This document shows, in pieces, positions 57,270-64,000 of a stretch of DNA of 64,000 nucleotides; position 1 is the first letter of the stretch, and each line of letters starts with the position of its first letter. The stretch lies in assembly GCA_030526175.1 (NCBI GenBank), contig JAUNDJ010000002.1, forward strand, positions 1-64,000, read 5' to 3'. The translations under genes were made by a program, and so were the position numbers. This stretch comes from Bacillota bacterium. GTDB taxonomy: Bacteria > Bacillota_I > Bacilli_A > Erysipelotrichales > Erysipelotrichaceae. The notes beneath the pieces were generated by a model that saw only the letters and a list, made by a program, of their open reading frames with translations, did not search any database and was not told where the DNA came from.

Positions 57270-57296
57270 TAGAAAAGCCCAGATGGTTTCTGGGCT
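57270..57296 (-). terminator. Terminator of the surface-protein operon
   Basis: Minus-strand AGCCCAGA-loop-TCTGGGCT (57277-57296) followed by TTTTCT; 11 bases after the last gene. Confidence 0.87.
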
Positions 57297-57307
57297 AACA
57301 TAAAGTA

Positions 57308-57922
57308 TCATCCTAAATAAGTATCATAAGAAATTGCCATGGAGAAATTTCCAAAAGAAAGAGCATCCCATCCTTGTTCGGTGAATACCAATCGTACTTG
57401 TGCGTACTTACTTCCTTCTTTTGATACACTACCAATAATAGTATCTTCTCCAGGAACAATTTGACGATTGTCTACATAGATTGTGACTGGCATAGTTTCC
57501 TTAGTTCCAGCAAATGTACAATCACATGTCAAAGTTATGTAGATTGTTTGGTCTTCTAAATTTTCAACATTCACTACTTTTGCAGTTTCTACTACAAAAT
57601 CATTCGCTCTATATGGAATTACCAATTGAGCTGGCAAATCTAACAACCAAGTCACTGCCTTTTCTTCTTGTTCGATCAAATCTTCCTCTTCAGCAATTAC
57701 TGAAAAGTCTTCTTCCGAAGGAATCTCTTCTTTAAATACATCGATTTCTTTTGCATCATCTTCTAAAAGAAACTGTTCTTCTATGACTTCTTCTGTTTGT
57801 TCATTTTCTTCCAAAATAATCGGTTCTTCTATTATTTCCCCGTCTTGTGCAAAAGAAGGAGCAGCAATAGTTCTTAGGGCAAAAAGCTGAACTAGAACGA
57901 GGGCAAATACTTTTCTTTTCAT
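57308..57922 (-). CDS. Secreted protein with acidic linker and C-terminal beta domain
   Basis: 204 residues, not in a family I recognise. A signal peptide (about 1-26, ending PSFAQ) is followed by a very acidic, low-complexity segment (about 27-90) and a C-terminal beta-rich domain of about 110 residues (VTWLLDLPAQLVIPYRAND through FSMAISYDTY). That domain resembles in layout the mature part of the protein encoded at 59616-60116. No membrane anchor or sorting signal. Last gene of the surface operon, three bases after the repeat-protein gene. Confidence 0.7.
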   Translation of the reverse strand: MKRKVFALVLVQLFALRTIAAPSFAQDGEIIEEPIILEENEQTEEVIEEQFLLEDDAKEIDVFKEEIPSEEDFSVIAEEEDLIEQEEKAVTWLLDLPAQLVIPYRANDFVVETAKVVNVENLEDQTIYITLTCDCTFAGTKETMPVTIYVDNRQIVPGEDTIIGSVSKEGSKYAQVRLVFTEQGWDALSFGNFSMAISYDTYLG

Positions 57923-57925
57923 GAA

Positions 57926-59074
57926 CTATTTCTCCTTTCTTTTTCTATGACAAATGATTGTTCCAATACCACAACTTATCCCCATTAGAACAATCCATTG
58001 TAATAAGTTTGTTTTGATTCCCGTATGCGTTAGACTATTCGTACTATTTCCTTTGACAGGAATAATCGCTTTTTCTTTGTACGAACAAATAGTACAAGTT
58101 CTTTCTTTATTTCCTTCTTTTGTAGAAGTTGGATTTACAATTGTTTTCCAACCACTAAATATGTGCACGCCTTTTTCTGCAATAGCACCATCGTTTGAAG
58201 TACATTCTTTCCAATGATCTTTTTCATCGTATTTCCAATCTCCAAACATATGTTCGTGTGGAGGCGCATCTTTTTCATACGTAACAATGACTATTTTACT
58301 TTCATTCATTGTTACAACAAGACGATTGTCTGTTACGGATACTTCTTCACCATTTACAGTAACTGTTTGGATTTTATATCCTTCATCTGGCGTGAATGAA
58401 ATTGTCTTTTCTTGGCCCTCTACAATGTCTTTTTCTCCTTCAGAAATCGTACCGTGTCCACCATTCACTTTTGTTGTTAAATCATAGGTGTTTTTTGTCC
58501 ATTTTGCGTACAATGTCATATCTTGTTTTATTGGTGCATCAAAATCAAAGACATTTATACATCCTTTTTCCAAGAACCAACCACCAAATATCCATCCACT
58601 CTCTTGAGGATCTACAGGTTTGATTGCTTTTTTTCCCTCTAATACATTTTGTGTTTCTATGGAAGTTCCATGTCCATTTAAATCAAAACTTATGGTATAT
58701 GTTTCATCTTCTCCAATGCCTAGAAAGCGAAAACTAACTGAAAGATTCGAATTATTATTCAAAGCGGGAGCTGTAAATTTATTATCCGACGATAGATTTA
58801 TGATTTCTTCCCCATTGTAAATGATTTTGTCTAGATCATACAAAGCATCTGGAATAAAAGTATATGTCACAACAGTTCCTTTTTCTTTTAAAAGACTTTT
58901 ATTTCCTCTATAGTCTGTATCTTCTATTTTCACTTTCCCATGCTCACCAATTTGAAGAGTTATCGAATAAGGAATATCTGTTGTTATTGTTGTTGTCCCA
59001 TCACTAGCCAATATATCCATACCCATTCCTATTACCATAATCAACGCTACTATCAGAGACAATATTTTTTTCAT
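57926..59074 (-). CDS. Surface protein with InlB-type repeat and C-terminal LTHTG-type anchor region
   Basis: 382 residues from the ATG at 59074 (GAGGAAG eight bases away; an ATG five codons upstream overlaps the previous stop). Signal peptide (about 1-24). The mature part opens DGTTTITTDIP, then contains a Listeria-Bacteroides/InlB B repeat (FDLNGHGTSIETQNVLEGKK, then GWFLEKG with LYAKWTK, about 129-195), a second 'Bacterial repeat' (VNGGHGTISEGEKDIVEGQE, about 200-265), and a HEH-x-F-G-W-type segment with C-x-x-C. The end has LTHTG, a hydrophobic stretch and HRKRKEK: the layout of a sortase substrate, with threonine in place of the usual proline. Likely wall-linked or membrane-anchored. Confidence 0.8.
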   Translation of the reverse strand: MKKILSLIVALIMVIGMGMDILASDGTTTITTDIPYSITLQIGEHGKVKIEDTDYRGNKSLLKEKGTVVTYTFIPDALYDLDKIIYNGEEIINLSSDNKFTAPALNNNSNLSVSFRFLGIGEDETYTISFDLNGHGTSIETQNVLEGKKAIKPVDPQESGWIFGGWFLEKGCINVFDFDAPIKQDMTLYAKWTKNTYDLTTKVNGGHGTISEGEKDIVEGQEKTISFTPDEGYKIQTVTVNGEEVSVTDNRLVVTMNESKIVIVTYEKDAPPHEHMFGDWKYDEKDHWKECTSNDGAIAEKGVHIFSGWKTIVNPTSTKEGNKERTCTICSYKEKAIIPVKGNSTNSLTHTGIKTNLLQWIVLMGISCGIGTIICHRKRKEK

Positions 59075-59085
59075 AGTAGGCTTCC

Positions 59086-59598
59086 TCATTTTGTTTTTCG
59101 AATCGCATTTGCATATTTAATAAGACCTGGTGGATAATCCTCTGGGTCTTCATCTTTTAAGATTAATCCAACAGTATTTCCTATCGTACCGGTTGTTCTC
59201 ACATATGGCCATAATTTTTTCGGTATTTTTGATAAATAGATTGGATCGGATACTTTTCCATATGCATCCATATACTTAGCACGAACTGTTTTTTGTACTA
59301 GATTTAGAAAGTCTTCGGGAAATTCTCCGAATTCATACCCTGGGAATTCAATTCCAGCTTTTTTTATTACACATAATGCAGCTAAAGGATAATCTTCGGG
59401 TTTTGCACCAATAGGAATTTTTAAATCTTTCGTAAGTTTTCCAACTTTATAAAGTCTTCGAATCTTTGGCCAGACTCCAGGAGGGAATTTGTCTTCATAT
59501 TCTGGTCCAATAATCTTTCCATATTTTTCTAAAAACTTGATTCGAAATTGAAAAACACTAATTCGTTCTCTTGTCTTTTTATATGGTGTATTACTCAT
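59086..59598 (-). CDS. Uncharacterised basic protein made of two tandem ~65-residue repeats
   Basis: 170 residues, family not recognised. No signal peptide or membrane segment. The two halves align: KYGKIIGPEYEDKFPPGVWP then ...KPEDYPLAAL (about 27-80), and AYGKVSDPIYLSKIPKKLWP then ...DPEDYPPGLI (about 105-160). Common pattern: YGK-x3-P-x-Y-x3-(F/I)P-x2-(V/L)WP ... (P/D)EDYP. Lysine-rich and aromatic. Lies between two secreted-protein genes in one operon, its stop overlapping the next frame, which suggests a cytoplasmic partner such as an export or assembly helper or a regulator. GGAT-type ribosome site. Confidence 0.7.
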   Translation of the reverse strand: MSNTPYKKTRERISVFQFRIKFLEKYGKIIGPEYEDKFPPGVWPKIRRLYKVGKLTKDLKIPIGAKPEDYPLAALCVIKKAGIEFPGYEFGEFPEDFLNLVQKTVRAKYMDAYGKVSDPIYLSKIPKKLWPYVRTTGTIGNTVGLILKDEDPEDYPPGLIKYANAIRKTK

Positions 59599-59615
59599 AT
59601 AGAATCATCCTTTCT

Positions 59616-60116
59616 TTATTTATCACTTGTATGCATTGTTTCCACTACATATGTAATTGTTGCTTGATATGTAGCTCCCGGCTTAGCACTAGACCAGTCA
59701 TCAACTTTTGCACTTAGTTGCTTTGTTGAATATTTCGGTTCCCTATTAGCATAATATGGATTTAAAGTACCATTAAGCTGATTATATCCATTCTTTTTAT
59801 ATTCAAAAGGACCATCAAATAATCTTAAATGAATAGTATCATCCGAATTGTCCTTATTGATTAAATTAGTATATTTAGGATATACCCAAATTGAGAAAAT
59901 AGACGAACGGACATCCGTAACATATAAATCACCGATAATTTGTAAATCTGTATTATCATATTCCAAAGTCATATTTGCCGGAATATGAAGTTGATAATCT
60001 GATACATTTTCTGGAACATTGACAGTTAGAATAGTTGTTCCATCCGCTGCCATTACGTTAGCACACATACACGATGCCATAGCTAACGATGATAAAATAG
60101 CTGTTAAATTTTTCAT
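59616..60116 (-). CDS. Secreted protein with N-terminal DGTT strand and beta-sandwich-like domain
   Basis: 166 residues from the ATG at 60116 (AAAGGAG eight bases away). Signal peptide (about 1-24, cleavage after NVMA). The mature protein opens DGTTILTVNVP, then has HIPANMTLEYDNTDLQIIGDLYVTDV and ends with PGATYQATITYVVET. The alternating-strand layout and the 'A-x-W ... PG-x-Y-x-A-x-I-T-Y' end recall WxL-like and other small Gram-positive surface subunits, but no family is certain. The opening matches that of the 57926-59074 product. First exported subunit of the operon and possibly the most abundant. Confidence 0.7.
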   Translation of the reverse strand: MKNLTAILSSLAMASCMCANVMAADGTTILTVNVPENVSDYQLHIPANMTLEYDNTDLQIIGDLYVTDVRSSIFSIWVYPKYTNLINKDNSDDTIHLRLFDGPFEYKKNGYNQLNGTLNPYYANREPKYSTKQLSAKVDDWSSAKPGATYQATITYVVETMHTSDK

Positions 60117-60129
60117 GTTCTTTTCTCCT

Positions 60130-60621
60130 TTATTCGACAATAATTGTTAGTCTCGTTTCAACTCCATTCAAAGCTTCTTGTCCTTCTTGGTCTTTGAAAC
60201 ATTCATACTTAAGCAATGCATTTTCATACGTTCCCTGCTTCAAAGGTTCAGATAAAACAATGCATCCTGAATTTTCTCCTGGAGCAAATAAATTCGATGT
60301 CCACAACACCCTTCCATCTTCTAAGTTTAAAGATACTTTGAACCAACAGAAATTCTGTTTCGGATTTGAAATCATAATATTCTGTTTAACTTGCCCAGCC
60401 TCAAATTTCAGATTTGTATATCCAGGGATATCAATACTGTCATTGAGTTTTTCTATTGGCTCTTCGACTTGTTCTTCCAAAACATCCTTATATGAAGCTA
60501 TTGTATTTCTTGTTTGGATCGTCCAAAAAGCAAAACCCAAAGAAAGAATTGCAACTAACCCTAAAATTACTAATAGGATATCTTTTCCCTTTTGGTTGGA
60601 ACGATGCTCTTCCTTTTCCAT
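60130..60621 (-). CDS. Membrane-anchored protein with extracellular beta domain
   Basis: 163 residues from the ATG at 60621 (AGAGG 11 bases upstream); the frame is open much further but through the promoter. One membrane helix (about 15-35), a short linker, and an extracellular domain beginning DIPGYTNLKFEAGQVKQNI with an inner YxCxFK-like segment (FCWFKVSLNLEDGRVLW, then GSGCIVLSEPL-type GENSGCIVLSEPL). Two or three extracytoplasmic cysteines. No family name; similar small anchored proteins accompany exported subunits in Bacillota. First gene of the surface operon, so perhaps the assembly base. Confidence 0.65.
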   Translation of the reverse strand: MEKEEHRSNQKGKDILLVILGLVAILSLGFAFWTIQTRNTIASYKDVLEEQVEEPIEKLNDSIDIPGYTNLKFEAGQVKQNIMISNPKQNFCWFKVSLNLEDGRVLWTSNLFAPGENSGCIVLSEPLKQGTYENALLKYECFKDQEGQEALNGVETRLTIIVE

Positions 60622-60697
60622 AGAATGATTAACCTCTTTTCCATTTATCATAATTTGCGCGCACTTTAGAAAAAGGGGACACCTTTTTCTTTTCTTG

Positions 60698-60761: not shown

Positions 60762-60793
60762 AAAAGCGAATGCTATTTTCTGCATTCGCTTTT
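60762..60793 (-). terminator. Terminator of the response-regulator gene
   Basis: Perfect 12-pair stem AAAAGCGAATGC / GCATTCGCTTTT (60762-60773, 60782-60793) with an eight-base loop; the T tract beyond is short, so some read-through into the surface operon is possible. Confidence 0.8.
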
Positions 60794-62732: not shown

Positions 62733-64000
62733 CTAGTCACCTACTTTCTCAAGAATAAAAGTGATATATGTGATTTGGTCTTCTTGTACAATCTTTGTTT
62801 GAATTCCTTTATATGCTACTTTTTCCAATTTTTCTAATCCCACTCTTAAATCTTCTAATGTCAAACGACACAATATATGTTTCTCATCATTTCGCAAATA
62901 TGCACTAACGCCTTGAAGAAATTCTAAATTCATTTCCAATAATTCTTCGATTGTTTCAAATACAATAAGTATTAATTCGGTTATGACCTTTCCTTTAGCA
63001 CAATTAACCATTTCAACAGAAATTCCATATAGTTTTATAGATCGTAACACTTCTGAAATGGACATAGCAAATTCTCCAATCTCTATGAAATTCTCATCTG
63101 CAGAAATTAACATTAAATTGGCATATCGCTTAATATAAGCTCCTAAGATTACGATTTTTATACGATTCTTTTCTATGCATTCTATACTCGAACACTGCAA
63201 CGCTTCATCAGCTAAAAGTGCTATTTTTTTTGATTGAATTTGAGTCCTTATGGCAATCGTATCATAAACATGTGAACGCTGATCAATCATTATCTGTCTT
63301 TCTTTTAGCTCATTTCGAAGACGATTGATTTCTGCCTCTTTGGAAAGACGCTCTTTCACTTTTTCCAAATTCTCGTTCATTGAATCAAGATAAGCCACAT
63401 CATCTTGCCATAATCCATAGCCACCATGTAATTTCATTTTATGCAAGATTGTATGATTTTCTATACGAGTTCCGTCAGAAAGAAAAAGCTGTGATTCCGA
63501 TAGATCCACTGCGTTCATCGATTTATAAACACTATTTCCTTTTTCATCAATAATTTGAGCTCCGATCATGGATTTTTGAAATAACATTCCATAATAGTTG
63601 TTAGTAGGAATCAACCCTAATTGCATACAACATTCCATAACTCCTGTTACCATAAACAATATTATATCTGGAAATTCAAACAATTCGTCACCATTAAACA
63701 TTGGCATATTTCCTGTTGCCAAAAGAAGTAACATAGCAATTCCAAGAGTAAAAGGAATCAGAATAACCCATGATTGTTTTCGAGAACGCATGACACGACA
63801 TTTTTTTATCATAAAAAAGGCAGATAAAATATATAATACATATTGCCAAAGAGTGAGTGCATAATACATAGTTTCATACGAATATTGATCATTCCAATTC
63901 ACAAAATTCGGTTGAAAATGAAATACAAGCTGATGGAAATCATTGGTTAATACTAGAAAAATAAATATAGTCGTAATCCATGCACACCATCCCCACTTTT
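62733..64000 (-). CDS. 7TM-type sensor kinase relative with degenerate ATPase domain, cut by right window edge
   Basis: 422 codons visible; the frame stays open past the GTG at 63902 to the window end, and the upstream residues (WCAWITTIFIFLVLTNDFH) read as a membrane helix followed by the N-D-x-H motif seen in 7TM histidine-kinase sensor domains, so the start lies outside the window. After the membrane part comes a short PAS-like region, a coiled coil, and QRSHVYDTIA with a possible phospho-acceptor histidine. The C-terminal ATPase region lacks recognisable D-x-G-x-G and G2 boxes. It overlaps nothing; two bases from the second kinase. Probably a signal-receiving partner rather than an active kinase. 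Confidence 0.75.
   Translation of the reverse strand, partial: KWGWCAWITTIFIFLVLTNDFHQLVFHFQPNFVNWNDQYSYETMYYALTLWQYVLYILSAFFMIKKCRVMRSRKQSWVILIPFTLGIAMLLLLATGNMPMFNGDELFEFPDIILFMVTGVMECCMQLGLIPTNNYYGMLFQKSMIGAQIIDEKGNSVYKSMNAVDLSESQLFLSDGTRIENHTILHKMKLHGGYGLWQDDVAYLDSMNENLEKVKERLSKEAEINRLRNELKERQIMIDQRSHVYDTIAIRTQIQSKKIALLADEALQCSSIECIEKNRIKIVILGAYIKRYANLMLISADENFIEIGEFAMSISEVLRSIKLYGISVEMVNCAKGKVITELILIVFETIEELLEMNLEFLQGVSAYLRNDEKHILCRLTLEDLRVGLEKLEKVAYKGIQTKIVQEDQITYITFILEKVGD

Follow-up and report, generated by a model that had tools for sequence, protein, structure and literature searches.

A five-gene operon of an Erysipelotrichaceae bacterium that may encode a surface assembly based on beta-strand donation

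Introduction

The question raised by the locus described here is what might be built by the products of five adjacent genes, two of which start their mature part with nearly the same short strand. The genes, referred to as ORF1 to ORF5 (open reading frames), lie at positions 57308-60621 of a stretch of 64,000 nucleotides (the window) at the beginning of contig JAUNDJ010000002.1 of a Bacillota bacterium of the family Erysipelotrichaceae (GCA_030526175.1). The host assembly (G000) comprises 2.85 Mb in 186 contigs and is about 90% complete. An initial annotation had proposed a surface operon under two-component control, whose subunits would polymerize by exchanging strands as in TasA-type fibres. 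The analysis points to a surface assembly held by donated beta-strands, a reading to which a probability of roughly 0.6 can be assigned.

Results

A strand shared by two products of the operon

The five back-to-back genes are all present on the minus strand, from 60621 down to 57308, tightly packed (intergenic gaps of 13, 17, 11, and 3 bp), each preceded by a plausible Shine-Dalgarno sequence, and followed by an intrinsic terminator (57276-57296, minus strand; hairpin z -3.1). Directly after their signal peptides, the mature products of ORF2 (59616-60116, minus strand, 166 aa) and ORF4 (57926-59074, minus strand, 382 aa) start with DGTTILTVNVP and DGTTTITTDIP, respectively; the two strands, ADGTTILTVNVP and SDGTTTITTDIP, correspond to residues 24-35 of each protein (60012-60047 and 58970-59005, both on the minus strand). 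Their alternating positions are occupied by L30, V32, and V34 in ORF2, and by I30, T32, and I34 in ORF4. The local alignment of the two strands has a score of 43, compared with a maximum of 32 among 6179 22-residue segments of the other ORFs of the window; the near-identity pointed out in the initial annotation is thus confirmed, and the common strand is a real, operon-specific feature, far above chance.

The same relationship was evaluated in seven operons encoding a membrane-anchored protein comparable to ORF4. The rule adopted for such anchors (signal peptide, C-terminal membrane helix, and membership of an ORF1 operon) recovers all seven of them; it also picks up a large LPxTG protein encoded upstream and two proteins that are multi-pass or lie upstream, and these three were set aside. 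Each pilin strand was scored against each anchor strand, with the mature starts placed by eye at the cleavage site (in locus L095, at the strand following an N-terminal domain), which is the softest step of the procedure. Of the 5040 permutations, the true pairing has the highest summed score, 258 versus a mean of 156 (standard deviation 20), and the pilin of the same operon is the best fit for six of the seven anchors. The strand outscores every other 22-mer of its locus in six of the seven operons. Restricting the comparison to five operons that differ strongly gives a p of 0.008, the minimum possible with five being 1/120. The same permutation test revealed no matching for the signal peptides (p 0.26), for residues 31-60 (p 0.54), or for residues 31 to the end (p 0.13). 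Operon-specific matching is the result expected of a shared acceptor groove, and the simplest reading of these sequences is that the anchor and pilin strands would both have to fit one groove.

The pilin-like family of ORF2

No family is assigned to ORF1, ORF2, ORF3, or ORF5 by Pfam, NCBIfam, or PHROGs, and Rfam gives no match within the operon region. An iterative hidden Markov model (HMM) joins ORF2 with the pilin-like proteins of related loci, and a family HMM built without ORF2 still recovers it over nearly its full length (E 1.2e-8). Judging from these profiles, ORF2 is a member of a family of secreted beta-sandwich proteins that is pilin-like and carries no annotation. Its sandwich extends from DYQLHIPAN to the C-terminus (59619-59996, minus strand), so that the last strand is the end of the protein and no further strand is encoded. 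The Pfam family SCPU (PF05229), which includes chaperone-usher pilins such as CsuA/B, has a curated cut-off of 22.4 bits. ORF2 itself has no SCPU match; two of its relatives pass the cut-off, in loci L080 (28.5 bits, 2.3e-6) and L128 (22.8 bits, 1.3e-4), with alignments running to the very end of the profile, and two more lie just below it (L129, 19.6 bits, and another pilin of L080, 19.5 bits). A PDB sequence profile of ORF2 weakly matches a biofilm-associated protein in the N-terminal part only, and a chaperone-usher capsule subunit, also weakly (E 0.07), over nearly the full length.

The AlphaFold-type model of ORF2, computed from an alignment of six sequences, has a mean predicted local distance difference test (pLDDT) value of 67 and a predicted TM-score (pTM) of 0.59. 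Foldseek matches it to DraE, AfaE-3, DaaE, EcpA, and the Bacillus Ena fibres with probabilities up to 1.00, a best E-value of 3e-3, and a TM-score of 0.57 for EcpA; TM-scores are low for several of the topmost matches, which are capsid sandwiches of viruses. The first 16 mature residues of the modelled protein contribute no strand to its own fold, and the last strand coincides with the protein end, a layout suggestive of a pilin awaiting a donated strand. A DGTT strand buried in its own fold, which the initial annotation had named as an argument against itself, is not what this low-confidence model displays, an outcome in favour of the proposal.

Two variants of the family can be mentioned. 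Locus L080 (G113:C54:3500-11480) contains a signal peptidase I gene, an ORF1-like gene, and a gene for a protein of 612 aa, then a tandem array of four pilin paralogues that includes the protein passing the SCPU cut-off. Within the ORF1-pilin-anchor operon of a relative from the same taxonomic order, L095:4864-5586 (plus strand) encodes a secreted protein in which the signal peptide is followed by a ubiquitin-like domain (MQIFVKTLYGKHITLEV...) and a pilin-like domain.

Conservation of the ORF1-ORF2 core

Single-sequence searches with ORF1 found relatives in the 273 genomes of the family and nothing in the wider genome contigs, while ORF2 had no relative in the 273 genomes when searched as a single sequence. 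Profile searches, for which alignments were required, gave some 30 good matches within the family, five positive genomes in a phylum sample of 392, all belonging to the same order, and, in the class to which the Lachnospiraceae locus L062 belongs, 13 positive genomes out of 341; viral contigs scanned for pilins added nothing new. In the neighbourhoods inspected, the gene immediately after the ORF1 homologue usually encodes a secreted protein that is pilin-like and follows the pattern (strand)-Y-x-V-x-IP ... G-x-Y-x-x-x-x-x-F. A pilin-like gene lies on the same strand, at most 3 kb from the ORF1 homologue, in 36 of 44 distinct loci of Erysipelotrichaceae and Clostridia; among the eight loci lacking it, L030 is truncated by the contig end, and in L122 an antisense ORF probably masks a near-copy of L119. 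Most Clostridia loci consist of ORF1 and a single pilin only. In genus g20, the arrangement alr-ORF1-pilin-pilin-large protein is repeated across many genomes and was counted as one inherited case, the remaining, differing contexts being counted as independent. The genomes of the same genus as the host (G163-G166) contain no clear homologue of ORF1 or ORF2. Of the gene order whose conservation the initial annotation had put forward as a check, only ORF1-ORF2, together with the anchor in some operons, is kept in distant relatives; ORF3 and the two-component genes are not. A literature search, which reached few subscription journals or preprints, did not find this gene set described as a system.

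Three classes of parts

The proteins of these loci that bear a strand, a groove, or both fall into three classes: with both strand and groove (ORF2 and the free pilins), with groove only, and with strand only (ORF4 and six other proteins). ORF4, whose start was set at 59074 on the basis of the signal peptide and a good Shine-Dalgarno sequence (an alternative in-frame ATG is at 59089), contains InlB-type repeats (Pfam Flg_new, 6e-16; Flg_new_2, 6e-13) between the strand and a C-terminal membrane helix. Against the pilin HMM it has no pilin-domain match, the alignment being limited to the signal peptide and strand; the InlB-repeat protein, previously taken for a polymerizing subunit, therefore reads as a strand-only anchor. 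The smallest anchors of this class measure 107 aa (L126) and 78 aa (L027).

The tail of ORF4, SLTHTG-hydrophobic segment-KRKEK (57929-58036, minus strand), is sortase-like. No sortase (PF04203) above threshold was found in the host genome, whose assembly is about 90% complete, so the tail can act as a plain membrane anchor. Sortases are also missing from the incomplete assemblies of the anchor-bearing genomes G189 and G187, and are present in G238, G236, G393, and G891.

The groove-only class includes 13 large proteins, 12 of them from genus g20, in which the signal peptide runs straight into Y-I/V-I-x-I/V-P. ORF5 (57308-57922, minus strand, 204 aa) has an acidic N-terminal stretch and a pilin-like domain without N-terminal strand; it aligns to the pilin HMM only from position 50 on, and to the pilin of L123 with a score of 73 (z 9.0). 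It is thus a candidate acceptor-only (tip) subunit. The idea that all the large proteins lack the strand turned out to be wrong: a strand-like segment is retained wherever the pilin domain is C-terminal, and only ORF5 and the large proteins with an N-terminal domain lack it.

ORF1 and ORF3

ORF1 (60130-60621, minus strand, 163 aa) consists of an N-terminal transmembrane helix and one extracellular immunoglobulin (Ig)-like domain, and is a candidate assembly factor or chaperone. Its AlphaFold2 model shows the helix and a single Ig domain with pLDDT values of about 90-97. Among the 50 best PDB matches found by Foldseek, about ten are chaperone chains of chaperone-usher systems (DraB, FimC, PapD), a hint from the model of a resemblance to pilus chaperones; a PDB sequence profile of ORF1 gave chance hits only. 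The last strand, after a conserved LNG, has the hydrophobic alternation V-x-T-x-L-x-I-x-V. As for the earlier statement that chaperone, usher, and sortase are all absent, it stands for the sortase in the host genome and for the usher, none having been seen; its chaperone part may be wrong, since ORF1 is an Ig protein that accompanies pilins and matches DraB, FimC, and PapD. A different arrangement occurs at L025:9066-10598 (minus strand), where two tandem ORF1 homologues carry an extra, probably cytoplasmic N-terminal domain of about 100 residues; there is no pilin nearby, and thioredoxin-like and lipoprotein genes follow.

ORF3 (59086-59598, minus strand) encodes an orphan of 170 aa with no signal peptide and no convincing relative in the 273 family genomes. 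It is composed of two diverged tandem repeats sharing a PEDYP motif (self-alignment score 90, versus a maximum of 47 in 1000 shuffles).

Genes upstream of the operon

A response regulator gene (61433-60801; Pfam domains Response_reg and GerE) lies upstream of ORF1, and two sensor-kinase-like proteins are encoded further upstream. The second of these (L022:736-2448; window 62733-64000 and beyond), whose gene immediately precedes the kinase gene, is 571 aa long, with membrane helices and no recognizable ATPase domain. A strong hairpin, a probable terminator (60762-60793, z -6.3), separates the regulator gene from ORF1, so that the two-component control proposed in the initial annotation is inferred from adjacency only; nor are the two-component genes conserved beside ORF1-ORF2 in the loci of relatives. 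At 60668-60690, about 46 bp 5' of ORF1, there is a perfect 9-bp inverted repeat, AGAAAAAGG-N5-CCTTTTTCT, occurring once in the window, which could be an operator or regulator site.

Discussion

A possible assembly by strand donation

The following organization may be proposed. ORF2 would combine an open groove (a pilin-type sandwich with the last strand missing) with a free N-terminal strand that fills the groove of a neighbour. ORF4 would be the cell-side anchor, with an equivalent strand, no groove, and its C-terminal helix in the membrane, and ORF5, having a groove without a strand, might only accept, like a terminal or tip subunit. Most likely, ORF1 would take up the secreted subunits and keep their groove closed until it is displaced by the incoming strand of the following subunit, thereby acting much like a pilus chaperone or TapA. 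The sequences themselves show the gene layout, the family relationships, the three classes of parts, and the operon-specific matching of anchor and pilin strands; from these we infer strand donation itself, the polymer length, the chaperone role of ORF1, and the order of assembly. The scheme does not account for ORF3. A surface system based on strand donation is the best reading of the operon-specific strand, of the conserved core order, and of a setting in which no sortase was found and no usher seen; the TasA-type nature assumed in the earlier proposal is supported neither by sequence nor by fold. Somewhat below even odds, and hence tentatively, the system might be an undescribed usher-less counterpart of the chaperone-usher pili in gut Firmicutes, with ORF1 as a tethered one-domain chaperone, strand-exchanging pilins, acceptor-only tips, and a strand-only anchor capping the base of the fibre. 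It is similarly doubtful whether real fibres are formed rather than a capped complex of the WxL type.

Several observations weigh against the assembly by donated strands. Locus L027 shows no strand match (score 17), the operons compared are only seven, three of them with one strand style, and their mature starts were set by eye. Strand donation is read from single-chain models and sequences, and no filament was observed. The model of ORF2 is weak, as its pLDDT and six-sequence alignment indicate, the Foldseek matches of the ORF2 and ORF1 models all fall short of E 1e-3, and the chaperones matched by ORF1 are intermixed with antibodies and other Ig folds. Moreover, in L130 and L076, which have a C-terminal pilin domain, a strand-like segment is kept before the domain, where an intramolecular strand fits better.

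The same parts might instead form a fixed platform of small and large sandwich proteins, a tethered Ig protein, and a small anchored protein, in which donated strands would complete one or two of the joints and no fibre would form. This is unlikely, even though the organization is nearly that of the WxL/Csc clusters (PMC10599100, PMC9772566) and the Clostridia loci mostly consist of ORF1 and one pilin: ORF2, its relatives, and the genome yield no WxL match, and the free pilins bear both strand and groove, which would be needless in such a platform; L080, moreover, has four tandem pilins. Alternatively, the N-terminal segment could be a handling tag read by ORF1, signal peptidase, or a modifying enzyme, the matching within operons then reflecting partner specificity. 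The segment does directly follow the cleavage site in both proteins, ORF1 is nearby in all seven operons, and the matching is operon-specific; a tag, however, would account neither for the donor-strand-like alternation nor for a pilin domain that stops where a donor strand would be needed, and acceptor-only proteins without the segment are encoded in the same operons, making this explanation improbable. Many gut Firmicutes have InlB-repeat proteins and secreted beta-sandwich proteins, so that ordinary secreted adhesins, alike at their N-termini by shared descent or local gene conversion, might also be considered. The adjoining signal peptides and the downstream regions have no such within-operon similarity, and operons from different families and classes repeat the pattern, which leaves this last explanation a very slim chance.

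The chaperone-usher fold, strand, and Ig partner, if indeed present in monoderm gut bacteria without usher or sortase, would show how such fibres can be built on a single membrane, and unannotated gene pairs of Erysipelotrichaceae and Clostridia would thereby gain a function. Thanks to the strand-only anchors, strand donation could be tested directly with short peptides.

Comparison with known systems

In its presumed way of working the operon resembles the chaperone-usher, TasA/TapA, and WxL systems, but it departs from each of them in a defining feature and was therefore filed under none of the three. The WxL/Csc clusters encode a small domain protein, a large protein with the same domain, an anchored Ig partner, and often an LPxTG protein (PMC10599100, PMC9772566), a strand of the membrane-anchored Ig protein being predicted to enter the WxL sandwich (PMC10599100). 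The present operon has in common with them small and large domain proteins, an anchored Ig partner, a small LPxTG-type protein, and a predicted strand completion; the helix of ORF1, on the other hand, is N-terminal and accompanied by one Ig domain. Membership was rejected, no match to WxL (PF13731), DUF916, or DUF3324 being found in the parts or their relatives, and no WxL in the genome.

TapA has a complete Ig fold, donates its N-terminal strand to TasA without being able to accept one, and serves for the fibre start only (PMC10151520). By analogy, ORF1 could be compared with the WxL Ig partner or with TapA in role, and ORF4 likewise with one of them. The TasA/TapA fibres of Bacillus subtilis resemble the present case in the Gram-positive setting and in strand donation from the mature N-terminus, but the folds found here match chaperone-usher pilins and Ena fibres, and the window operon includes no signal peptidase gene. 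The TasA/camelysin and TapA profiles of Pfam and NCBIfam gave no match, the TapA model reaching 14.1 against a cut-off of 80, in the membrane-helix region of ORF1 only.

The Ena and F-ENA endospore appendages are fibres of Gram-positive bacteria that are linked by N-terminal connectors and have an anchor of their own (PMC11952670). The setting, the connector, and the separate anchor are common to both, and Ena is among the Foldseek matches of ORF2; however, there is no DUF3992 or DUF4183 match, no spore genes are evident around the operon, and the anchor here offers a strand instead of a head domain. Sortase-assembled pili were discarded, no pilin-polymerizing sortase being above threshold in the incomplete host assembly.

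Pili that have the chaperone-usher fold and assemble by strand exchange are known in Gram-negative bacteria. With these pili (SCPU/Csu, Dra/Afa, Fim/Pap), the operon and its relatives share a pilin-like sandwich ending in its last strand, an alternating N-terminal strand, acceptor-only large proteins, and an Ig-fold partner, in addition to the two family members that pass the SCPU cut-off. Neither the operon nor any of the neighbourhoods read contains an usher-like ORF, the genome not having been searched for the usher family; a monoderm lineage would not use an outer-membrane usher. Differently from those pili, with their outer membrane, usher, and two-domain periplasmic PapD-like chaperone, the present operon has in ORF1 one Ig domain joined to a membrane helix and, in ORF4, a strand-only membrane anchor.

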